From: a virus
DNA: 27,501 bases
IMG/VR virus record: IMGVR_UViG_3300030098_006114
Span: 1-27,501 of that record
Reading direction: 5' to 3' (one strand)
A program made the position numbers and the translations under genes. Shown piece by piece: positions 18,981 through 27,501 of the stretch. The notes under the pieces were generated by a model. The model saw only the letters and a list, made by a program, of their open reading frames with translations, did not search any database and was not told the origin of the DNA. Positions within the stretch are counted from its first letter, which is position 1. Each line of letters begins with the position of its first letter.

Positions 18981-19009
18981 GTTAGTTTTCATATTCGTCT
19001 CCCTTGATG

Positions 19010-19039
19010 GCCCCGTTAAATCAAAAACGGGGCTTTTTT
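19010..19039 (+). terminator. Intrinsic terminator of the replication operon
   Basis: GCCCCGTT (19010-19017) pairs perfectly with AACGGGGC (19026-19033), loop of 8, then six T. It follows the polymerase stop by about 30 bases, and a promoter begins immediately after its T-run. Confidence 0.9.
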
Positions 19040-19040
19040 C

Positions 19041-19069
19041 TTGACATATTGTATAAACTCTTATATTTT
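19041..19069 (+). promoter_or_regulatory. Promoter of the ribbon-helix-helix gene
   Basis: A perfect TTGACA (19041-19046) directly follows the terminator. The -10 is either TATATT (19062-19067, spacer 15) or TATTTT (19064-19069, spacer 17). ATAGGAG and the ATG at 19096 follow. Confidence 0.6.
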
Positions 19070-19984: not shown

Positions 19985-20210
19985 AATTCATTACTTGGTG
20001 ACTGGTCGGTTCTTTCGGATAGTAGACTTCTACGTAGGTTCCGCAGTTAGGACAGGTAAGATTAGAAACAATTAAAAAATCACTTTCCTCGTCATCAACA
20101 TCGTGATCCCCACCCCAGATTAAATTCGTGCCACAATGCCAACAATCCATGCTTCTAATATTAAAGACCTTTACAAGCCTTTTTCCCTTATTCTTTTTAA
20201 TCTTTCCCAT
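19983..20210 (-). CDS. Small zinc-ribbon phage protein (CWHCG type)
   Basis: A 75-residue protein with two CxxC pairs, C23/C26 (MDCWHCGTNLIWGGDHD) and C53/C56 (LTCPNCGTYVEVYYPK), the signature of a zinc ribbon found in many phages, usually unnamed. The stretch between the pairs is acidic (DVDDEESD). The start at 20210 has GAGGA about 8 bases upstream; starting at Met21 (20150) would remove the basic N-terminal 20 residues (MGKIKKNKGKRLVKVF) and the overlap with the upstream gene, so the start is uncertain. It may bind DNA or RNA polymerase; not shown. It forms a two-gene minus-strand unit with the next zinc ribbon. Confidence 0.75.
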   Translation of the reverse strand: MGKIKKNKGKRLVKVFNIRSMDCWHCGTNLIWGGDHDVDDEESDFLIVSNLTCPNCGTYVEVYYPKEPTSHQVMN

Positions 20211-20389
20211 ACTACATCCTCATTGCAGACGTTGCAACACCTACCCTCCTCGGCCAACGGCTCAGGGTTATGGCTGTCCATGATGTGTGTAATCTTTTTT
20301 CCACAGATACAACAGTAGATAGGTTCTTTTAATCCGTCCATAATAAGAGAATAGCAGACTTTATTATAAAAGCAAATATTATTTGACAT
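20171..20389 (-). CDS. Small zinc-ribbon phage protein (DSHNP type)
   Basis: A 72-residue frame with C26/C29 (CCICGKKITHIMDSHNPEPL) and C52/C55 (RCCNVCNEDVVWERLK). The DSHNP block and RCCN-x-CN are a pattern I recognise from small conserved phage and prophage proteins of unknown role. The conserved part begins at Met17, so the true start may be 20341 instead of 20389; neither has a Shine-Dalgarno. From 20389 a TATAAT-like -10 (20408-20403, minus strand) would give a 7-base leader. The end overlaps the next minus-strand gene by 40 bases if that gene starts at 20210. Confidence 0.7.
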   Translation of the reverse strand: MSNNICFYNKVCYSLIMDGLKEPIYCCICGKKITHIMDSHNPEPLAEEGRCCNVCNEDVVWERLKRIREKGL

Positions 20390-20412
20390 TATCTTAGTTA
20401 TTATTATATAAT
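20383..20412 (+). promoter_or_regulatory. Consensus sigma-70 promoter for the 20422 gene
   Basis: TTGACA (20383-20388), 18 bases, TATAAT (20407-20412), both hexamers perfect. Transcription would begin about 20419-20420, so the ATG at 20422 has virtually no leader. Confidence 0.75.
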
Positions 20413-20421
20413 CTTATAATC

Positions 20422-20658
20422 ATGCAAATTATGGGATCTAATGAGGAAAAAAATTGTTTAGTATGTAACGATATTTTAATTAATAATGGAACTTGGGGTT
20501 ACTGCTCTTCTTGTTGGAATAGTAACAAAGTAATGAAAAAAGTAACTTGGGAAAAATATTGGATGAATAATGATGCAAGTACAAAAGTTTTTATTAGTGG
20601 ACCATGTATTACAACAAATACAGGACGACGTATTAAAAGGAGATATGACGGCCATTGA
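20422..20658 (+). CDS. Small zinc-ribbon protein, probably leaderless
   Basis: A 78-residue protein with C12/C15 (NCLVCNDIL) and C28/C31 (WGYCSSCWNSNK), a treble-clef or zinc-ribbon-like arrangement. A basic C-terminus (GRRIKRRYDGH) suggests nucleic-acid contact. There is no Shine-Dalgarno, but a perfect promoter puts the transcript start within about 2-3 bases of the ATG. ATG 20431 is an alternative start. The end overlaps a small downstream frame by 14 bases. No family recognised. Confidence 0.6.
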   Translation: MQIMGSNEEKNCLVCNDILINNGTWGYCSSCWNSNKVMKKVTWEKYWMNNDASTKVFISGPCITTNTGRRIKRRYDGH

Positions 20659-20740
20659 AACATTAATTTCAGAGCTGCCCGTCGATACACTCAAAGCTTT
20701 TCTTTCGGAGGTAAATCAAAATGAAAAAAATAATTGTTAG
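20645..20740 (+). CDS. Very small protein (31 aa), overlapping both neighbours
   Basis: ATG 20645 is preceded by AAAAGGAG (20635-20642), one of the best ribosome-binding sites in the region, and the frame runs to TAG 20738-20740. The product starts MTAIETLISELPVDTLKAFL, an amphipathic helix, and ends in NNC. It overlaps the zinc ribbon by 14 bases and the next gene by 20. The strong site argues for translation; it may be a functional microprotein or couple translation to the downstream gene. Confidence 0.45.
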   Translation: MTAIETLISELPVDTLKAFLSEVNQNEKNNC

Positions 20741-20978
20741 TCCCATTGTAAAGGACGCCATGAAAATTTTTTCGTTAGAAAGAGTATACAATCCTTATTT
20801 GAAATGGGCTGACGATCCCGATCCAATGGACTTCGACCATCTTTATGAAAAAGACTTGGTTGCTGACGCCAAGAAGTTATTAGAAGATGAAGATAAAATT
20901 TTTGATCCAGAAGATGTCAGACGATTAAAAGATTTTGTTCGTAAGTGGGATGTCGAAGATCTACCTGATCCCGACTAG
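20721..20978 (+). CDS. Small acidic protein of unknown function (85 aa)
   Basis: An 85-residue protein, GGAGG 9 bases before ATG. It is strongly acidic (DDPDPMDFDHLYEKD; LEDEDKIFDPEDVRRLKDF; ends DVEDLPDPD), predicted helical, with no Cys and no membrane segment. Such acidic small phage proteins sometimes mimic DNA or inhibit host enzymes, but nothing here shows that. It ends 7 bases before the first iteron-like repeat block. Confidence 0.6.
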   Translation: MKKIIVSPIVKDAMKIFSLERVYNPYLKWADDPDPMDFDHLYEKDLVADAKKLLEDEDKIFDPEDVRRLKDFVRKWDVEDLPDPD

Positions 20979-20985
20979 TTGGTTT

Positions 20986-21071
20986 TGTCACAACTGTCAC
21001 AGGTGTTTTGTAACTTTATATAAATAAAATTATTTAAAAAAGTTTTGTTTTAGCTTGTGACAAGTGTGACA
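20986..21071. repeat. Symmetric iteron-like cluster 1 (TGTCACA pairs)
   Basis: Two direct copies of TGTCACA at 9-base period (20986-20992, 20995-21001) face two copies of the complement TGTGACA, also 9 apart (21056-21062, 21065-21071). Between them are 54 bases, almost all A/T. Each arm reads TGTCACANNTGTCACA, so the whole is a near-perfect long inverted repeat. This could be a replication origin, centromere-like site or operator. No gene lies in 20979-21249. Confidence 0.7.
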
Positions 21072-21081
21072 AGTATTTAGG

Positions 21082-21098
21082 TGCGACACTATGTCGCA
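21082..21098. promoter_or_regulatory. Perfect dyad upstream of the 21109 promoter
   Basis: TGCGACA (21082-21088) and TGTCGCA (21092-21098) flank a 3-base centre, 10 bases before the -35 at 21109. It is a likely activator or repressor site; there is no T-run. Confidence 0.5.
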
Positions 21099-21108
21099 TT
21101 AATTACCC

Positions 21109-21137
21109 TTGACTTATATGAGATTCTATGATACAAT
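21109..21137 (+). promoter_or_regulatory. Strong promoter for the boxA-bearing leader and 21250 gene
   Basis: TTGACT (21109-21114), 17 bases, TACAAT (21132-21137). The predicted start near 21144 is followed by a leader of about 105 bases without an open frame. Confidence 0.7.
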
Positions 21138-21140
21138 CTT

Positions 21141-21208
21141 ATATGGTTTAAAAAACCATATTGCTCTTTGACATTGATAGAAACCTTATTCGTAGACAGG
21201 AAACTGTC
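21141..21208 (+). promoter_or_regulatory. nut-like leader: hairpin, boxA, GNRA hairpin
   Basis: In order: ATATGGTTT/AAACCATAT hairpin (21141-21161); TGCTCTTTGACA (21162-21173), which matches the bacterial rRNA-leader boxA (TGCTCTTTAACA) in all but one base; and GACAG-GAAA-CTGTC (21195-21208), a stem with a GNRA tetraloop in the place of a boxB. In lambdoid phages boxA plus boxB recruits Nus factors and N protein to make RNA polymerase ignore terminators. Here the leader precedes a single gene and a terminator, with terS beyond. Antitermination is inferred. Confidence 0.5.
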
Positions 21209-21249
21209 AGTGATCGAAGATTATTTTAACTAAACATACGGAGTTCAAT

Positions 21250-21660
21250 ATGTTAGAAAAAGACTTAATTACTTTTAAATTAACCAAGACCGAATGGTTT
21301 TTGCACCATGATAGAATACAGTTGTCGGATTGTCTTGAAGATGTTTTTGAAACTTGGTTTCAATATGAAGATGACCCAAGAGAAGCCGTTACTAATCTGT
21401 TTTCAAAAGTTCAAGATGCTTGTTACAAAGAACACAAAGATGGTTCTTGTACCGTAACTTTAAATTTAAATAATAGATGGGACTTGGAGCTTTGGAACGA
21501 ATCTATAGATGGTAATGCAATGGTATGCTCTTGGATTTCAGAAGCTAAAAATGGTTATATTGATTCCAAATCAATTTTAACTCATTGTCGTAATGTTAAT
21601 AAAAAATTAGATTCTATTGACCCACATGGTCGTTATTTATGGGCAAGGTGGATAATATAA
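21250..21660 (+). CDS. Unknown protein behind the boxA leader (136 aa)
   Basis: A 136-residue protein with ACGGAG before ATG. It is acidic to neutral, rich in Trp (seven) and Asp, without Cys pairs or a membrane segment; features include FKLTKTEWFLHHD, CTVTLNLNNRWDLELW and HGRYLWARWII at the C-terminus. I do not recognise a family. It is expressed from a strong promoter through a leader with a boxA-like element, is followed by a terminator, and is bracketed by two iteron-like clusters. This suggests a special regulatory or initiation role, but the sequence does not reveal it. Confidence 0.7.
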   Translation: MLEKDLITFKLTKTEWFLHHDRIQLSDCLEDVFETWFQYEDDPREAVTNLFSKVQDACYKEHKDGSCTVTLNLNNRWDLELWNESIDGNAMVCSWISEAKNGYIDSKSILTHCRNVNKKLDSIDPHGRYLWARWII

Positions 21661-21845
21661 CAAACAAAGCCTCGTGGATCACGGGGCTTTTTCTTTGCAC
21701 AGGAGATCAAGTAAAGTTATACTGGTTTAGGGCTCAATACTCACGGACTGGGGATCACGGCTTGCTGACTTTGTTTTACGTATCAATATTTATTGCTCTG
21801 GTTTATATTATTGTGGGGCTTGTTTATATATTTCTCTACAAATAA
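21639..21845 (+). CDS. Doubtful small membrane protein frame
   Basis: A 68-residue frame whose C-terminal 26 residues (LLTLFYVSIFIALVYIIVGL, then VYIFLYK) would be a good transmembrane helix. But the ATG lies inside the preceding gene, has no Shine-Dalgarno, and the frame runs through the terminator stem. An AGGAG at 21701-21705 has no start codon at a proper distance. Possibly a decayed holin-like or membrane gene; possibly chance. Confidence 0.25.
   Translation: MGKVDNITNKASWITGLFLCTGDQVKLYWFRAQYSRTGDHGLLTLFYVSIFIALVYIIVGLVYIFLYK
21666..21692 (+). terminator. Intrinsic terminator after the 21250 gene
   Basis: AAAGCCTCGTG (21666-21676) pairs with CACGGGGCTTT (21680-21690) with one G-U and a 3-base loop, followed by TT after TTT. 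It sits 6 bases after the stop. Confidence 0.85.
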
Positions 21846-21901
21846 CACGCTTTATGTTATATAGCCGAGAAATTAAAAAAATATTTTTTAGTGTTAAATA
21901 G

Positions 21902-22004
21902 GTGTAACTAGTGTAACCATGTAACTTTAGTGTTCAAGTACCTTATTTATAAGGAAATAATTAGGTTACATAAGTAGTTACACTAAGAATTAATAAAATG
22001 TAAC
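21902..22004. repeat. Iteron-like cluster 2 (TGTAAC/GTTACA) upstream of terS
   Basis: TGTAAC occurs at 21903-21908, 21912-21917 and 21920-21925 (spacing 9 and 8); the complement GTTACA at 21965-21970 and 21977-21982; and one more TGTAAC at 21999-22004. The centre holds a palindrome CCTTAT-TT-ATAAGG (21941-21954) in AT-rich DNA. Layout and period echo cluster 1 with a different sequence. Lying about 130 bases before terS, it may be a TerS recognition (pac/cos) site, an origin or an operator. The rest of 21846-22136 has no gene, only a GGGGGG run at 22036-22041 and long A/T runs. Confidence 0.65.
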
Positions 22005-22136
22005 CAAAACTTCTTAAATATCAATATTGCGTTATGGGGGGTCTGCGACTTTTTTTTAAAAAAATATTTTTCTGGACTATATAACTAGAATCGGTATTTT
22101 TAAGAGAACTATCGTTTATTAACTAGGAAAGTATTT

Positions 22137-22748
22137 ATGGCTAGAAAAAAAAGAAGATTAGTAGAAACCAGAGGTAGACCTAAAGCAACGGTTAATTCAA
22201 CTTTAACAAGACGACAGGAACTTTTTGTAAAAGAACTTGTTAGTAAAGATGGACAGATAACTATGAGAGAAGCTGCAATTAATGCAGGCTATCCTGTTTC
22301 TTCTGCACATACGAGAGCTTATGAACTTACTAATCCAAACATGAGTCCTCATGTTGTAGCTAAGATTAGAGCCTATCGACAAGAACTAGATGAAAAGTAT
22401 GGCGTAACGTATCAAAGACATTTGAGAGACTTACAAACTATCAGAGATTTGGCTTTACAGAACGGAGCTTACTCAGCCGCAGTTCAGGCCGAGTATCGTA
22501 GGGGACAGGCACAAGGCGATATTTATATTAGTAAATCTGAAGTAAGACATGGTTCTATTGATAGCATGAGTAAAGAAGAAGTAGAGAAAGCACTAAAGGA
22601 GATAAAAGAGCAATATGCCCCGATCACCATTGATGTTACTCCAACCGAGGAGAGCAACAAACAAAACCGCAGTCAAGCGAGAAAGCGGATTTTATCAGCA
22701 GATGAAAACAGGAATCAAAAAGACCAAGAGGAACCTCATCCTGACTAG
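22137..22748 (+). CDS. terS: Terminase small subunit
   Basis: A 203-residue protein with AGGAAA 6 bases before ATG. A basic N-terminus (MARKKRRLVETRGRPKATVN) precedes a terminase-small-subunit HTH: LTRRQELFVKELV, then TMREAAINAGYPVSSAH and RAYELTNPNMSPHV. After it comes an oligomerisation-type helical segment (KYGVTYQRHLRDLQTIRDLA) and the motif VQAEYRRGQAQGDIYISKSE common in these proteins. TerS rings recognise the viral packaging site and load the large subunit, which would lie outside this window. Repeats at 21902-22004 just upstream are a candidate binding site. The end overlaps the nuclease frame. Confidence 0.85.
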   Translation: MARKKRRLVETRGRPKATVNSTLTRRQELFVKELVSKDGQITMREAAINAGYPVSSAHTRAYELTNPNMSPHVVAKIRAYRQELDEKYGVTYQRHLRDLQTIRDLALQNGAYSAAVQAEYRRGQAQGDIYISKSEVRHGSIDSMSKEEVEKALKEIKEQYAPITIDVTPTEESNKQNRSQARKRILSADENRNQKDQEEPHPD

Positions 22749-23073
22749 ATTGGAAACTTGGGCAACCCCTGGTATTCCTGATTTAATTATTTGTGACGAA
22801 AATGGTAAGTTTCATTTTATTGAACTTAAATATACGGCAACCAAGGCCGTTCAAATTAGTCCACACCAAGTAGCTTGGCTTTCAAAACATAAACATAGTA
22901 GCAGTTGGATTTTTATAAAAAGAGATTTTTGTAAAGAAAATACGAGCTTTATTATTATCTACAAAGCAGAAGATGCTATTGACCTAAAATTACAGGGATT
23001 AAAAAAGTCTCCGTTCTATTGTGAAGAAGAACCTTTTGATTGGCATGAAATTTTATCCTTGACTATTTTTTAG
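22615..23073 (+). CDS. VRR-NUC-type PD-(D/E)XK nuclease
   Basis: A frame of 152 residues. The nuclease core is clear: RLE (45-47), PGIPD with D56, FHFIELKY with E70 and K72, and SPHQVAW with Q85, in the order of VRR-NUC/Holliday-junction-resolvase-like enzymes. In phages these probably cut branched DNA before packaging, fitting a place right after terS. The start is uncertain: ATG 22615 gives a 134-base overlap with terS; ATG 22702 (Met30) shortens it but lacks a Shine-Dalgarno and starts only 15 residues before the conserved RLE. No ATG lies between with a good site. The following promoter (-35 at 23059) is inside the 3' end of this gene. Confidence 0.75.
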   Translation: MPRSPLMLLQPRRATNKTAVKRESGFYQQMKTGIKKTKRNLILTRLETWATPGIPDLIICDENGKFHFIELKYTATKAVQISPHQVAWLSKHKHSSSWIFIKRDFCKENTSFIIIYKAEDAIDLKLQGLKKSPFYCEEEPFDWHEILSLTIF

Positions 23074-23087
23074 TTAGGTCTTATATT
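23059..23087 (+). promoter_or_regulatory. Promoter for the 23122 gene
   Basis: TTGACT (23059-23064), 17 bases, TATATT (23082-23087). It starts within the nuclease gene and lacks the GC hairpin seen at the four later units. TTACGGAG precedes the next start. Confidence 0.65.
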
Positions 23088-23121
23088 ATCTCATACATTT
23101 AATTATTACGGAGACATAGTA

Positions 23122-23532
23122 ATGACAGAAGATCAAGTAATAAAAACCCTTAACATTCATGTTACGAAAAGAATGAAAGTAAATGATGCAGGGGTCTGCA
23201 CTATGATTGAAAAGAATAATATTGATGCAGATAAAAACTTTAGACAATTTATGTCTTTATTCGGGGTGGACTACGAACTTCTGGGTAAAGGCGGTAAAAA
23301 TGGTAAGAAACTACTTGCTCAATATTGCAATGGCGATCCTTGTGTAATTAATTGTTACATTGTTAATGGAAAAGGTGGCCGTAAAGATAGACGATTTTCG
23401 CTATCTAAAATAAAAAAATATGCACAACCAAATGATCTATTAGCTTTCACTTTTAAAAAAGATGAAAACGGTAATACTATTTTAGTAGTAAATGTAACCG
23501 CCTGTGCTAAACAAAATAGAAAGGTTGGTTAA
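23122..23532 (+). CDS. Unknown small basic protein (136 aa)
   Basis: A 136-residue protein with ACGGAG 8 bases before ATG and its own promoter. It is basic and contains GKGGKNGKKLLAQYCNGDP and GKGGRKDRRFSLSKIKKYA, followed by a hydrophobic strand-rich end (DLLAFTFKKDENGNTILVV). No catalytic motif or membrane segment is visible; a small nucleic-acid-binding fold is plausible but not shown. The next gene starts directly after its stop, so the two are an operon. Confidence 0.6.
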   Translation: MTEDQVIKTLNIHVTKRMKVNDAGVCTMIEKNNIDADKNFRQFMSLFGVDYELLGKGGKNGKKLLAQYCNGDPCVINCYIVNGKGGRKDRRFSLSKIKKYAQPNDLLAFTFKKDENGNTILVVNVTACAKQNRKVG

Positions 23533-23757
23533 ATGGTTAAGACCTTAGATGTAGATATTGTTTCAGGAGTTAATGTTTCTTTAACAAAAGATTGGCATGA
23601 ACAGGCTATTAAAAAATTTATTGAATCTTTGAACAATAGGGAAGTATCTTTTGAATATAAAATTTATAATGACGAAGATGGAACTTCTTTAGCTATAGAA
23701 GATGAGGATGAGTTAGAAAAAATAATAGAGATGGAGTGCCAAGATGTTTCTAATTAA
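23533..23757 (+). CDS. Unknown small acidic protein (74 aa)
   Basis: A 74-residue protein starting at the base after the previous stop, with AAGG (23521-23524) as the ribosome site. It looks like one small alpha/beta unit (LDVDIVSGVNVSLTKDWHEQ, then KKFIESLNNREVSFEYKIY) and ends acidic (EDEDELEKIIEMECQDVSN). Family not recognised. The end overlaps the next small membrane gene by 14 bases. Confidence 0.6.
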   Translation: MVKTLDVDIVSGVNVSLTKDWHEQAIKKFIESLNNREVSFEYKIYNDEDGTSLAIEDEDELEKIIEMECQDVSN

Positions 23758-23857
23758 ATGGTTAGCTATTTTAATTTATGGTCGGGATAACGTAGAAGAG
23801 TTTGAAAAATCTAATGCTAGACCTATCGTCAAACCAAAAAGAAAAAGGAGGAAATAG
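23744..23857 (+). CDS. Single-pass small membrane protein (37 aa)
   Basis: ATG 23744 has GGAG (23733-23736) 7 bases before it, inside the previous gene. The 37-residue product has a short hydrophobic N-terminal stretch (MFLIKWLAILIYG) and then a charged tail ending in the very basic KPKRKRRK. This layout occurs in small phage membrane or holin-like proteins and in translation-coupled peptides. The codons for its basic tail contain the AAAGGAGG that serves the next gene. Confidence 0.5.
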   Translation: MFLIKWLAILIYGRDNVEEFEKSNARPIVKPKRKRRK

Positions 23858-23860
23858 GGT

Positions 23861-24025
23861 ATGAAATTAACTGAAAAACAAATTGAAGAAATAGTTAAAG
23901 TAAATCCTTATAATTCTTCTTTTGATATTTGTAGTATCTGCGGTGGTGTAGAAAATTACCTTCAAATGTCACAAGTAAATGAAGTTGATTTTGATTTAAT
24001 TTGTGATGATTGTAATAATCCTTGA
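23861..24025 (+). CDS. Small two-CxxC zinc-binding protein (54 aa)
   Basis: ATG 23861 follows AAAGGAGG by 9 bases, the strongest Shine-Dalgarno in this part. The 54-residue product has C24/C27 (FDICSICGGVENY) and C48/C51 (DLICDDCNNP), a minimal zinc ribbon with an acidic linker. It is the fourth small zinc protein in about 4 kb. The stop codon (24023-24025) lies within the -35 hexamer of the next promoter. Function unknown. Confidence 0.6.
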   Translation: MKLTEKQIEEIVKVNPYNSSFDICSICGGVENYLQMSQVNEVDFDLICDDCNNP

Positions 24026-24078
24026 CTTTATCTCATAAATGATTATTATTAGGGACGGGACATTTTCCGTCCCTTTTT
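24022..24078 (+). promoter_or_regulatory. Promoter plus 5' GC hairpin cassette (unit 1)
   Basis: TTGACT (24022-24027), 16 bases, TATTAT (24044-24049). The predicted start is about 24056, inside the stem AGGGACGG (24051-24058)/CCGTCCCT (24067-24074), followed by a T-run and then TTATGGAG. The hairpin looks like an intrinsic terminator yet lies after the promoter. Confidence 0.6.
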
Positions 24079-24093
24079 ATTATGGAGATATTA

Positions 24094-24294
24094 ATGACAA
24101 AAAAGTTAACACTTAATCAAATTCAAGACCGAATAGATAATATTGAATCTCAATATTATAAAGGCCACAAACAAACTGAATATTGGTGGAGAATTTCGGG
24201 AGATGTTCACCCACAAGACAGAAGGCTTTGGACATACTACCATAATCTTAAAAACAAAAGAAATATGGAGGGGAAAAATGAAACTAGAACTTAA
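24094..24294 (+). CDS. Small unknown helical protein (66 aa)
   Basis: ATG 24094 is chosen because the in-frame ATG at 24082 is part of the ribosome site itself (ATGGAG) found before many genes here. The product (MTKKLTLNQIQDRIDNIESQ onward) is charged and helical with a Trp/Tyr-rich middle (QTEYWWRISGDVHPQDRRLW). I do not recognise it. It overlaps the next gene by 17 bases, and its 3' end carries that gene's GGAGGGG site. Confidence 0.6.
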   Translation: MTKKLTLNQIQDRIDNIESQYYKGHKQTEYWWRISGDVHPQDRRLWTYYHNLKNKRNMEGKNETRT

Positions 24295-24790
24295 AAATAT
24301 AAAGTATTCCGAATTTGCATCTCAGGAAACGGCTTGTTATGAGGCAAAACTTTATGTAGATGGTAAGCCTCTTGCTTTAGTGGGTAATCAGGGACATGGT
24401 GGTTGTGACTATCAATATTCACTTAACGATCAAAACATTGATGATAAATTAAGAGACATTAATAAATATTTAAGCACCTTACCTAAGATGAAAAGTAAAT
24501 TTCATTACGGGGACGGAGAAATGACAAAACATGAATTTACAGTTGATTTAGAACTTTGGTGCGGTGAAGAATTAAATAAATGGATAAATTCAAAAAAACT
24601 TAAACGTATTTTGAAAAAGGGTTCAATGATCTTAGATAGTGATGGTGACTTATTTTATTGGAAACATTTCATTCCGTCTGATACAATCAGAAAACATCAC
24701 CCAAAATCAATTGTTTTGAATGATCTTCCTTTTGAAAAAGCTTTAGATGTTTTTATGAGTAAAGACCCAGATGTATTTTGCAATGAATAA
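24278..24790 (+). CDS. Conserved phage protein of unknown function (170 aa)
   Basis: ATG 24278 follows GGAGGGG; the frame extends further upstream, but that part lies over another gene. The first 60 residues (MKLELKNIKYSEFASQETAC, then YEAKLYVDGKPLALVGNQG and HGGCDYQY) are a pattern I recognise from phage genomes, usually unnamed. A Trp/Lys-rich centre follows, with LWCGEELNKWINSKKLKRIL. The C-terminus (PKSIVLNDLPFEKALDVFM) is typical for the family. No catalytic residues stand out. Transcribed from the 24022 promoter with the preceding small gene. Confidence 0.65.
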   Translation: MKLELKNIKYSEFASQETACYEAKLYVDGKPLALVGNQGHGGCDYQYSLNDQNIDDKLRDINKYLSTLPKMKSKFHYGDGEMTKHEFTVDLELWCGEELNKWINSKKLKRILKKGSMILDSDGDLFYWKHFIPSDTIRKHHPKSIVLNDLPFEKALDVFMSKDPDVFCNE

Positions 24791-24804
24791 TCATATAAAA
24801 AGCA

Positions 24805-24862
24805 TTGACTTTTTCTTATATCTTTGATAACAGTGAAGGCGGGGTATTTATCCCGTCTTTTT
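24805..24862 (+). promoter_or_regulatory. Promoter plus 5' GC hairpin cassette (unit 2)
   Basis: TTGACT (24805-24810) followed by a TTATAT core and a weak -10 (GATAAC at 24826-24831, spacer 15; TAACAG at 24828-24833, spacer 17). Then stem AAGGCGGGG (24836-24844)/TCCCGTCTT (24851-24859), with two G-U pairs, T-run and TTACGGAG. The -10 is the weak point. Confidence 0.5.
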
Positions 24863-24885
24863 TATTATTACGGAGATTATATAAA

Positions 24886-25707
24886 ATGATAGAACAAATT
24901 GAAAATATGAACGATCAGGAATTAGTCGATTATTTATTCGATAAAGTGGACGTTAAAAAAACTATTTATAAAATGTTAACCGAAAACACAGGAATTAATT
25001 TTTTGGATTCGGGCGGGGGTAATGGTAGGCATTGGCAACGTAACCAAATAAAAACAATCAAAGACTTTCAAGATGAACCCGAAGCTACTTTAAATTTTGA
25101 TGTTAGCGGAGATTATATATATTTAGACCCTACTGTATCCGTATTTCATAAATTATCAAAAGTATTAGATGAATGCAAAATATGTAAAGATTTTAACGCT
25201 ATGAAAGTTAATAATTGGGATAGTGATAATTATTATGGAGTAAGTAAAGAGGGAGATGAATTTTTAAATTCTTATGGATTTAAAACTGTAAGCGGTGATG
25301 AAAATGTAGATTGGAATACATACAATTGGGATAACTGTTTTAGTCAGGTTGTGCAAGGGACTAATTTAATTAGTGATAACAACGAGAATTATGTTCTCAT
25401 TCAAATACATCAGGGCGCAGATGTGAGAGGGGGATACACGGACGCTAAATTATTTATTATCTCTCATGGCTATGATTGTTTACATTATTCTGTGCATGAT
25501 GATAGTTGTATGTTTAGCGTTAAAAATCCTGAAATTGATGTTCTTACAAAAGATATGTTTAATTTTACCCGCGATAATCAATTATTTATAGATTATAGAG
25601 GTGGATATTTTAGCAATGGGGACGGGTTAGAATTGGAACAAGAATTTATAAAAAAGTTTGCAACACTATGCGATCATAAAACTGTATCGGGAACATTATA
25701 CGAATAA
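24886..25707 (+). CDS. Conserved phage protein of unknown function (273 aa)
   Basis: ATG 24886 has ACGGAG upstream; the frame is open 27 codons further, but that part is the promoter-hairpin cassette. The protein contains LDSGGGNGRHWQRNQ near residue 40 and VLIQIHQGADVRGGYTDAK near 200, both recurring in a family of phage and plasmid-borne proteins that I know only as hypothetical. The centre is acidic with Asn/Asp-rich stretches. No Cys pairs or membrane helices. Its own promoter and hairpin suggest independent expression. Confidence 0.65.
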   Translation: MIEQIENMNDQELVDYLFDKVDVKKTIYKMLTENTGINFLDSGGGNGRHWQRNQIKTIKDFQDEPEATLNFDVSGDYIYLDPTVSVFHKLSKVLDECKICKDFNAMKVNNWDSDNYYGVSKEGDEFLNSYGFKTVSGDENVDWNTYNWDNCFSQVVQGTNLISDNNENYVLIQIHQGADVRGGYTDAKLFIISHGYDCLHYSVHDDSCMFSVKNPEIDVLTKDMFNFTRDNQLFIDYRGGYFSNGDGLELEQEFIKKFATLCDHKTVSGTLYE

Positions 25708-25713
25708 TAATAC

Positions 25714-25771
25714 TTTACTTTTTCTTATATTTTTGATATTACTAGGGACGGGGTGATTTGCCCCGTCTTTT
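25714..25771 (+). promoter_or_regulatory. Promoter plus 5' GC hairpin cassette (unit 3)
   Basis: TTTACT (25714-25719), 17 bases, TATTAC (25737-25742), start about 25748, then GACGGGG (25747-25753)/CCCCGTC (25761-25767) with a T-run, then TTATGGAG. The spacer contains the CTTATAT core shared with unit 2. Confidence 0.55.
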
Positions 25772-25796
25772 AATTTAATTATGGAGTTATAAAAAA

Positions 25797-26780
25797 ATGA
25801 ATAAAATAGCAGATAATTTAATAAATAACGCAATCGCAACCGCAGAAAATACTGCAGACGTAGTATTTCCGCCATTGGAAAAAGTAAATTTCTCAGCCGT
25901 AAAAACCCCGATCTATTTAAGAAATGTAAGCGGGGATTATGTGCCCGTACCAATGGAAACGGGGCAAGCTATCATTAGAACTGATAATAATACCCCGTTG
26001 GGCGTAATGAAAAAAAGATATGCAATCGCGGATAATTTAGAATTAGATAATGCGGTGTGCGAGGGTTTAGAAGATTCACTTCCAAAAGAAGCTTTACAGA
26101 ATATTAAGCTAATTGAAAAAACCGCAGATAATGGTTCAATATGCCGTTGGGGTTATTCTTTTGACGGGTTAGGTCGAGATATCCGCCAATTAACGGGTAG
26201 TAAAACGCAATTAAATTTCCGTGTTATGATCATTAATAGTTTTGGCGGTCAAACAGCTATTCGATTACAAGCGGGCGCAGAAGATTTATTTTGCACTAAT
26301 GGCTGTACTTCCGCAGAATTAATGGCAACCGCTTTTGGTCATACTGCTAGTTTTAATCCCGCTCAGGTAAAACCATTTATTGAAAAGCAAGTTGAATACT
26401 ACGAATTAAAAGTACAAACTTGGCAAGCATGGGCAAATAAAGAAATAACTTACGATCAAGCTTTTAAAGTTTTACAGGATAATTACCCCGCTTCAGAAAG
26501 TGAAATTAGAAGAGCAGAAAAAAAGGGAATTACTGCGGGCGAAGCAAAATCCAGAAAAACCGCTCAATTAATGGAGCAATTTGAGCGAGAGTGTGAACAA
26601 CGCGGGTCAACATTGTGGTCTCTTTACTCAGCGTTAACGCATTATAGCTCCCATTCGGAGGGTTCATTCACTGTTAAAAATTCTGCTAATCGCGATAATG
26701 TAGAAACAACACTAATACAAAGAGAGCGCGAAGTTAACAATGTGACCGCGTCGGAAAGTTTTCTTGAACTAGCTATGTAA
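25797..26780 (+). CDS. DUF932-family protein
   Basis: A 327-residue protein with ATGGAG 10 bases before ATG. It has the DUF932 layout: an N-terminal part with a ligand-like motif (VMKKRYAIADNLELDNAV), a core around residues 140-175 (FRVMIINSFGGQTAIRLQAG, then EDLFCTNGC), and a helical C-terminal half. The family is common in phages and plasmids, and its biochemical role is unknown. Expression is from its own promoter and hairpin cassette. Its DNA is visibly richer in CpG-containing codons (CCG, CGC, GCG) than the AT-rich virion genes, which could mean a different origin. Confidence 0.85.
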   Translation: MNKIADNLINNAIATAENTADVVFPPLEKVNFSAVKTPIYLRNVSGDYVPVPMETGQAIIRTDNNTPLGVMKKRYAIADNLELDNAVCEGLEDSLPKEALQNIKLIEKTADNGSICRWGYSFDGLGRDIRQLTGSKTQLNFRVMIINSFGGQTAIRLQAGAEDLFCTNGCTSAELMATAFGHTASFNPAQVKPFIEKQVEYYELKVQTWQAWANKEITYDQAFKVLQDNYPASESEIRRAEKKGITAGEAKSRKTAQLMEQFERECEQRGSTLWSLYSALTHYSSHSEGSFTVKNSANRDNVETTLIQREREVNNVTASESFLELAM

Positions 26781-26788
26781 TTAAATAC

Positions 26789-26850
26789 TTTACTTTATCT
26801 TATAATTTTATTACTACTTAAGACGGGGTATTTAGCCCCGTCTTTTTTTT
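26789..26850 (+). promoter_or_regulatory. Promoter plus 5' GC hairpin cassette (unit 4)
   Basis: TTTACT (26789-26794) with TATAAT at 26801-26806 (too close to be its partner) and TACTAC at 26812-26817 (spacer 17); stem AAGACGGGG (26820-26828)/CCCCGTCTT (26836-26844), eight T, TTACGGAG. The exact -10 is uncertain. Confidence 0.5.
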
Positions 26851-26871
26851 AACAATTACGGAGTAATAAAA

Positions 26872-26997
26872 ATGGATTTAGAAGAATTTGAAAAATATCA
26901 TTTATGCGATTTTGAATATTTAGAAGAGATGAATTGCATAGAAGAAGAAGAAAGAAGAATTTTAGAAACATTTAGAAAATATAAAGAAAGCGAGTAA
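26872..26997 (+). CDS. Small acidic protein (41 aa)
   Basis: ATG 26872 follows TTACGGAG (26857-26864). The 41-residue product (MDLEEFEKYHLCDFEYLEEM onward) is very acidic, helical, with two Cys, and ends in KYKESE. The ribosome site is identical in type to those of its neighbours and the unit has the promoter-hairpin cassette, so translation is likely. The family is unknown. Confidence 0.55.
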   Translation: MDLEEFEKYHLCDFEYLEEMNCIEEEERRILETFRKYKESE

Positions 26998-27003
26998 ATA
27001 AAA

Positions 27004-27258
27004 ATGGAACAAATCACAGTTGGAATATATCAATGTTATGTTATTGAAAAGAAAACCATTTCACTTGCTTTTGGCGGTTGCGGTTCAAGTACCTATATTT
27101 TAGGAAAGCGCACCCGCTGTCCTTTTCCTGATTTACCTTACTTTACTATTTACAGGGATGATGACAACGGCGGTTTATATTCAGGACATTACGATATGAA
27201 TTTAAAAGACGCCTTAGAAGATTTTGAAAAGCGAACTAATCCAGACTATTTAAAATAA
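27004..27258 (+). CDS. Unknown small protein (84 aa)
   Basis: An 84-residue protein 6 bases after the previous stop, without a good Shine-Dalgarno (only GAG), so it probably depends on translation of the preceding small gene. It starts MEQITVGIYQCYVIEKKTIS and contains GGCGSSTYILGKRTRCPFPD and an acidic helical end. I recognise no family; the beta-rich N-terminal half with three Cys may form a small folded domain. The operon ends at a terminator 26 bases later. Confidence 0.6.
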   Translation: MEQITVGIYQCYVIEKKTISLAFGGCGSSTYILGKRTRCPFPDLPYFTIYRDDDNGGLYSGHYDMNLKDALEDFEKRTNPDYLK

Positions 27259-27283
27259 TAAACCCTATTACATAATCAAAATT

Positions 27284-27308
27284 AAGGCCGTTTCTGACGG
27301 CCTTTTTT
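27284..27308 (+). terminator. Intrinsic terminator
   Basis: AAGGCCGT (27284-27291) pairs perfectly with ACGGCCTT (27297-27304), 5-base loop TTCTG, with T from 27303 to 27308. It ends the last operon of the window. Confidence 0.9.
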
Positions 27309-27341
27309 ATTGCTCGTTTTTAATAGTTAATCATGCAAAGA

Positions 27342-27501
27342 ACCGCGCTCCGTGGCCTTTTTAAAACGTACAGGAAATTTATATTGCTGGTCAAAAAACC
27401 GTGGACCGCGAACCGCGTTTTATTTTTTATGGTCCAGCCCGAATATTTTTTACACCGCGCCCCGTGTATTTTTTACCGCGTCCCGTGTATTTTTTACCGT
27501 G
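27342..27501. repeat. CCGCG-rich repeat region at the right edge
   Basis: No gene is seen here. Several copies of ACCGCG occur (27342, 27405, 27412, 27475, and CACCGCG at 27453). The last 58 bases are a tandem array with units of 23 (27444-27466), 21 (27467-27487) and at least 14 bases (27488-27501, cut by the edge), each starting TATTTTTTAC and most ending CCCGTG. The array may continue beyond the window. Confidence 0.6.

Follow-up and report, generated by a model that had tools for sequence, protein, structure and literature searches.

Putative leader hairpins linked to successive promoters in a phage genome fragment and its relatives

The IMG/VR virus record IMGVR_UViG_3300030098_006114 is a linear fragment of 27,501 base pairs (bp) from an uncultured aquatic phage, analysed here over its whole length and referred to below as the window. 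It encodes a family A DNA polymerase, UvrD- and SNF2-type helicases and an AEP-type primase, together with a weak small-terminase match and a DUF932 gene. Near its end, four genes are each preceded by a cassette in which a promoter-like sequence is followed by a GC-rich stem with a T run, a ribosome site and an ATG, an order that an initial annotation had set against the usual succession of terminator and promoter. All four copies were found as placed, at 24022, 24805, 25714 and 26789, and the contrast site at 19009-19069 does run from terminator to promoter. Comparison with related loci leads us to propose, with a probability of roughly 0.55, that the stem is a leader hairpin at the 5' end of each mRNA, which would protect the transcript and, in this window, would double as the terminator of the upstream gene.

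Each cassette lies on the plus strand and consists of a -35-like TTGACT or TTTACT, the 7-mer TCTYATA, a weak-to-fair -10 box, the GC stem with its T run, TTATGGAG or TTACGGAG, and the start codon. The promoter of cassette 1 (24022..24049; 10/12 matches) joins TTGACT (24022-24027) to TATTAT (24044-24049) over a spacer of 16 nucleotides (nt) and contains the 7-mer as TCTCATA (24031-24037). Its hairpin, located by stem listing and folding, spans 24051..24074 with 10 pairs and then a T run, and the ribosome site TTATGGAG (24080-24087) precedes an ATG at 24094 (24080..24096), a start assigned from the Shine-Dalgarno sequence. In cassette 2, TTGACT (24805-24810) and a weak -10, TAACAG (24828-24833), delimit the promoter (24805..24833) around TCTTATA (24814-24820); the hairpin (24835..24860) has 11 pairs followed by a T run, and TTACGGAG (24868-24875) leads to the ATG at 24886 (24868..24888) of a gene for a 273-aa (amino acid) protein, phrog_11344. 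Cassette 3 has its promoter at 25714..25742, with TTTACT (25714-25719), TCTTATA (25723-25729) and TATTAC (25737-25742), a hairpin of 12 pairs and a T run at 25744..25770, and TTATGGAG (25779-25786) before the ATG at 25797 (25779..25799) of the DUF932 gene (25797-26780). Cassette 4 follows with a promoter at 26789..26817 formed by TTTACT (26789-26794), TCTTATA (26798-26804) and a weak TACTAC (26812-26817), a hairpin of 10 pairs at 26820..26844 ending in a T run of 8, and TTACGGAG (26856-26863) before the ATG at 26872 (26856..26874). For comparison, a promoter at 23059..23115 on the same strand carries TTGACT, TCTTATA and TCTCATA 10 bp apart, and TTACGGAG, with no hairpin.

The pattern TTKACTTTWTCTYATA occurs exactly four times in the window, at the four cassettes, always on the plus strand and with 0 mismatches; a scan allowing up to 2 mismatches found 4 sites against 0.74 expected (0 of 100 shuffles reached 4), which, as the pattern was derived from the four sites themselves, speaks for recurrence and not for the significance of a prior pattern. 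Terminator-like stems are abundant in the cassette region (18 versus 7.7 +/- 3.1 expected). Promoter-like sequences are not enriched there as such (51 versus 47.6 expected); the evidence comes from comparison with relatives.

The closest cultured phage, judged by the small terminase and the DNA polymerase, is DSL-LC04, which has a gammaproteobacterial host (59% and 57% identity); the Pelagibacter phages HTVC023P and HTVC027P are more distant cultured relatives by the same two proteins. Between the small and large terminase genes, DSL-LC04 and HTVC023P have a run of small genes with intergenic gaps, an interval that corresponds to the cassette region of the window. A nucleotide search of 20001-27501 against the phage collection gave 0 matches, and a genome scan with the small terminase returned five contigs only, all from metagenome-assembled genomes and with no clear link to a host or prophage. 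Related loci were collected with three protein queries (the DUF932 protein, the small terminase and the 273-aa protein); the resulting contigs are non-independent, redundancy having been lowered by simple identity cut-offs alone. A scan of IMG/VR with TTKACTTTWTCTTATA yielded mostly unrelated contigs, plus three relatives (L084, L088 and L104), and an early broad pattern listing that allowed 3 mismatches was uninformative. In one relative, L130, the cassette 1 promoter and its stem immediately precede the gene served by cassette 2 in the window (L130:4014-4089 versus window 24022-24890); the cassette has thus been the joint in a gain or loss of genes.

Close relatives keep the same order although their promoter has diverged, as where AGGGGCGGGGTATTTTATCCCGCCC follows CTTGACTATATAAGATAAAACCTATATCTATT. 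When the stems that precede a ribosome site were considered over all loci, promoter-like matches clustered 2-9 nt upstream of the stem core (46 versus about 9 expected), with none at 11, 12 or 17 nt. In addition, the relatives hold a second promoter class, TTTACTTT...TCGCATATAATCGCATA, with a good -10 box, which allowed a selection blind to the stem: requiring only the -35, a good TATAAT or TATTAT -10 and the ribosome site gave 41 non-redundant promoters. A stem begins 2-12 nt after the -10 in 27 of these, compared with 1.8 in shuffled leaders, and on inspection several of the 14 apparently stemless promoters do have a stem, one that is bulged, has a longer loop or starts marginally outside the range. 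In 24 of the 27 stems the first G-C pair falls 6-8 nt downstream of the -10, which corresponds to predicted positions +1 to +3 if transcription starts 7 nt after the -10, all start sites being predictions and the -10 boxes being weak in two of the four window copies. In the TTGAC/TTGCA class the stem core begins some 33 nt downstream of the first T in the -35, and in the TTTACT class, where the distance between -35 and -10 is longer, it begins several nt later; the stem thus follows the predicted start.

The suggestion that each mRNA would begin with a hairpin is therefore supported for the predicted start, where the stem sits. Relatives with stems but no promoter would, according to the initial annotation, have refuted its reading; among the relatives, promoter-like matches accumulate just upstream of the stems before ribosome sites, and the orthologous leader of the DUF932-type gene retains both parts in almost all of 48 sequences. 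Stems in other layouts do exist in the relatives and belong to a separate, terminator-first arrangement. The cultured phage DSL-LC04 has the same order as the cassettes, as in TATAAT-TCACGG-GCGGGAATCCTCCCGC, without a T run, and no such cassette was found in the regions read of HTVC023P and HTVC027P. In HTVC023P (L291), several genes between 13000 and 16161 carry a stemless leader motif, AACTAACAAA, before the ribosome site. In a further relative, the promoter is separated from the ribosome site by a pair of consecutive hairpins, CCGCGGCGGGCAAGCCGCG and GCCGGGCATGGTGCCCGGC (L189:5645-5765).

The DUF932-type leader provides a sample of 48 distinct sequences picked by protein similarity alone. 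Promoter, stem and ribosome site occur in nearly all of them, and 43 of the 48 fold below their shuffles at z < -1.5 (median -3.2). When the arms were anchored on the hexamer GGGCAA, without requiring pairing, 150 of 246 cells paired at offset 0, above the maximum of 129 in 1000 shuffles. Covariance analysis in related phages, which the initial annotation had put forward as a check, bears out the stem: its pairs covary around a fixed GGGCAA loop. Among 17 distinct ungapped hairpins around GGGCAA, all 7 pairs have changed on both sides, and the covariation score is 0.724 versus 0.181 in shuffled sets (0/500); this set came partly from stem-filtered lists, which inflates the percentage paired and makes the variety of pair types the better evidence. 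A second set of 11 hairpins points in the same direction more weakly (0.468 versus 0.320, 0/500). Alignment of whole leaders with MAFFT misplaces stems of unequal length and was not used for pair counts. Taken together, these results indicate that the leader stem is a real RNA stem kept by compensatory changes. No Rfam family reached its gathering score in window positions 23900-27501 or in four relatives.

That the GGGCAA loop stays constant while every stem pair changes could also mean that the hairpin is a protein-binding site, read through GGGCAA (or a GGGGTA-type loop in the window) and governing how the phage mRNAs of a given set are translated or how stable they are. We regard this as rather improbable, given that the loops of the window differ (GGGGTATTTA, GGGACATTTT), that no partner protein is known and that the ribosome site lies outside the stem.

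The T run separates the window from many of its relatives. An intrinsic terminator is defined by a GC stem with an immediate T run, and the four window copies, each with a T-rich 8 nt directly 3' of the stem, have this form; the TTTACT class does not, as all of its 27 stems have at most 5 T in the following 8 nt, hence no T run. A separate intrinsic terminator lies upstream of the promoter in 23 of the 27 stem-bearing promoters. The arrangement is plain in L188, where a unit made of terminator, promoter, T-run-free leader stem, ribosome site and gene occurs three times. On this comparative evidence, the conserved element appears to be a leader hairpin at the transcript 5' end and not a terminator, and the stems with T runs are a variant of this broader leader-hairpin design. 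The order and spacing of the parts, the covariation, the loop fixed in many relatives and the absence of a T run where a separate terminator is present can all be read directly in the sequences.

In the window, the stretch from each upstream stop codon to the stem of the cassette showed no further terminator-like stem. In this regard, a simpler explanation would be that the stems are ordinary terminators of the upstream genes, placed after the next promoter by short intergenic space: the T runs of the window equal those of true terminators in quality, and the upstream genes have no other end signal. In line with this notion, among 64 mixed cassettes a separate terminator accompanies 0 of the 19 hairpins with a good T run and 18 of the 45 others (Fisher p = 6e-4), in a table confounded by gene position and relatedness and including a few doubtful members. 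Yet relatives with a separate terminator retain the start-site stem and lose the T run, and a terminator needs neither a fixed distance from the -10 nor a fixed loop; the stems also differ from ordinary terminators in lying after the next promoter, at its start site. This explanation is thus unlikely. The 64-cassette table is a hint, short of proof, that the T-tailed copies took over the job of the terminator. Stopping read-through, one of the roles first envisaged for the stems, finds no support as a general role, since in the class with the best -10 boxes the T run is absent and a separate terminator is mostly present, but it is plausible for T-tailed copies, including those of the window.

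The relatives also display a second compact layout, in which the loop of an intrinsic terminator contains the TTGAC of the next promoter's -35, the T run forms the spacer and the -10 (often TATAGT) comes directly after it. Stems vary while TTGAC stays in the loop, and 31 distinct cases occur in related loci versus 0 in reversed sequences, among them L124:2922, L138:5537, L141:8297, L163:7645, L173:8285 and L182:8424.

The TTATA first taken as the promoter core proved not to be the -10 but part of an operator-like 7-mer that recurs at promoters throughout the phage family: it lies only 6 nt from TTKACT, takes the form TCATA in copy 1 and has disappeared from L130's relative of copy 4, where the sequence is TCTTACA. 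The -10 candidates stand 16-17 nt downstream of the -35 (TATTAT, TAACAG, TATTAC and TACTAC), and two of them, in copies 2 and 4, are poor. The 7-mer, as TCTYATA/TATRAGA, is present between -35 and -10 in every window cassette (24031, 24814, 25723 and 26798) and also at window promoters that have no hairpin (19059, 20412, 21117, 21137, 23079 and 23089). GC-richer relatives carry the form TATGCGA/TCGCATA; in 15 related loci TATGSGA/TCSCATA occurs 190 times versus 48 expected, with 44% of occurrences outside long open reading frames (16% of bases) and a spacing that is often 10 or 21 bp. The 7-mer is likely a regulator binding site or a part of the promoter. By eye, the equivalents in DSL-LC04 seem to use a different repeat, GTTTGTA/TACAAAC.

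An element repeated between -35 and -10 in all four copies recalls the AlpA element (PMC7969949) and lambda Q antitermination, and in the window a T-tailed, terminator-like stem follows the promoter that bears the 7-mer. In its T-tailed copies the cassette might accordingly be a promoter-proximal attenuator or switch, where transcription would stop at about +30 unless a phage factor loaded onto RNA polymerase via the 7-mer. This is quite improbable: many relatives have a stem that lacks the T run, the 7-mer is found at hairpin-free promoters as well (23059 in the window), and the AlpA terminator starts at +54, whereas the cassette stem would start at +1.

The preferred reading, a leader hairpin at the 5' end, would work as follows. 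Each cassette would be a single-gene promoter fused to a hairpin beginning at the transcription start; open, A/U-rich sequence would then lead to the ribosome site and the start codon. An mRNA whose 5' end is nearly fully paired should lose its 5' phosphates more slowly and undergo slower 5'-end-dependent decay, so that short phage mRNAs would be kept alive while the ribosome site stays free. The reporter mRNA bla is known to gain stability from a 5' hairpin, which also impedes RppH (PMC3997798). Folded from position 31 after the -35 start, which includes the full stem, the window copies reach -16 to -18 kcal/mol, compared with -9 to -13 kcal/mol from position 36; RNA reading through from upstream would thus form the stronger stem. 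Termination of the upstream gene on this longer, full stem is suggested by the T runs and by the lack of another terminator between the genes. What we infer are the position of the transcription start, the protection that the hairpin would give and its double duty as a terminator.

Several points weigh against this proposal. Copies 2 and 4 of the window have poor -10 boxes, and in them the standard rule places +1 a few nt inside the stem, which would shorten the hairpin. Furthermore, a hairpin with a T run right at the start could stop the very transcript that it begins, and the invariant GGGCAA loop of many relatives exceeds what simple end protection needs. A possible, if doubtful, wider reading is that promoter-locked start-site hairpins with a conserved loop are family-wide and that a phage or host factor recognises them, placing a gene set under post-transcriptional control via the first 20 nt of its mRNAs.

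The nearest known likeness is with the stabilising 5' stem-loops of the ompA leader and of bla, which share a stem near the 5' end, a single-stranded ribosome site downstream and the expected protection via blocked RppH and 5'-end-dependent decay (PMC3997798). The cassettes differ in being repeated and promoter-locked for several phage genes, in the loop that is fixed in many relatives and, in the window, in the T run. The SAS/ESAS elements of cluster K mycobacteriophages resemble them as repeated inverted-repeat elements directly upstream of some non-structural genes. However, the ESAS authors found little support for mRNA hairpins (PMC3203893), whereas the arms of the cassette hairpin covary; the SAS 13-mer GGGATAGGAGCCC, which in cluster K stands before start codons, had 0 matches here with up to 2 mismatches allowed. 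HK022 put RNA is likewise an RNA structure directly downstream of a phage promoter, as at putL (PMC9378689), and the cassettes might conceivably encode a nascent-RNA element acting in cis on RNA polymerase. Such a function is highly improbable, as put is a fold of about 70 nt with two stem-loops, compared with a single stem of about 25 nt (16-27 nt) here, and the genes behind the stem form short units followed by terminators, with little to antiterminate. DNA-hairpin promoters of the N4 type were set aside as well, because the cassette stem lies at and after the predicted +1 and not upstream of it.

Single stabilising 5' hairpins are already known; in the open-licence papers searched, we found no description of this promoter-hairpin arrangement and no account of a phage group that builds such hairpins into successive promoters in a constant position with respect to the start. 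If the proposal is right, these phages offer a natural collection of promoter-hairpin-ribosome-site units that differ in their stems, in which the effect of 5' structure on mRNA life could be tested, and annotators should be cautious, as a T-tailed stem in front of a gene may be a leader in addition to a terminator. The presence of the same order in the cultured phage DSL-LC04 makes start-site mapping feasible if the host is available.

Beyond the last cassette, the window ends at the end of the record in a stretch (27343-27501) of dense, short CCGCG/CCGTG repeats able to pair with each other.

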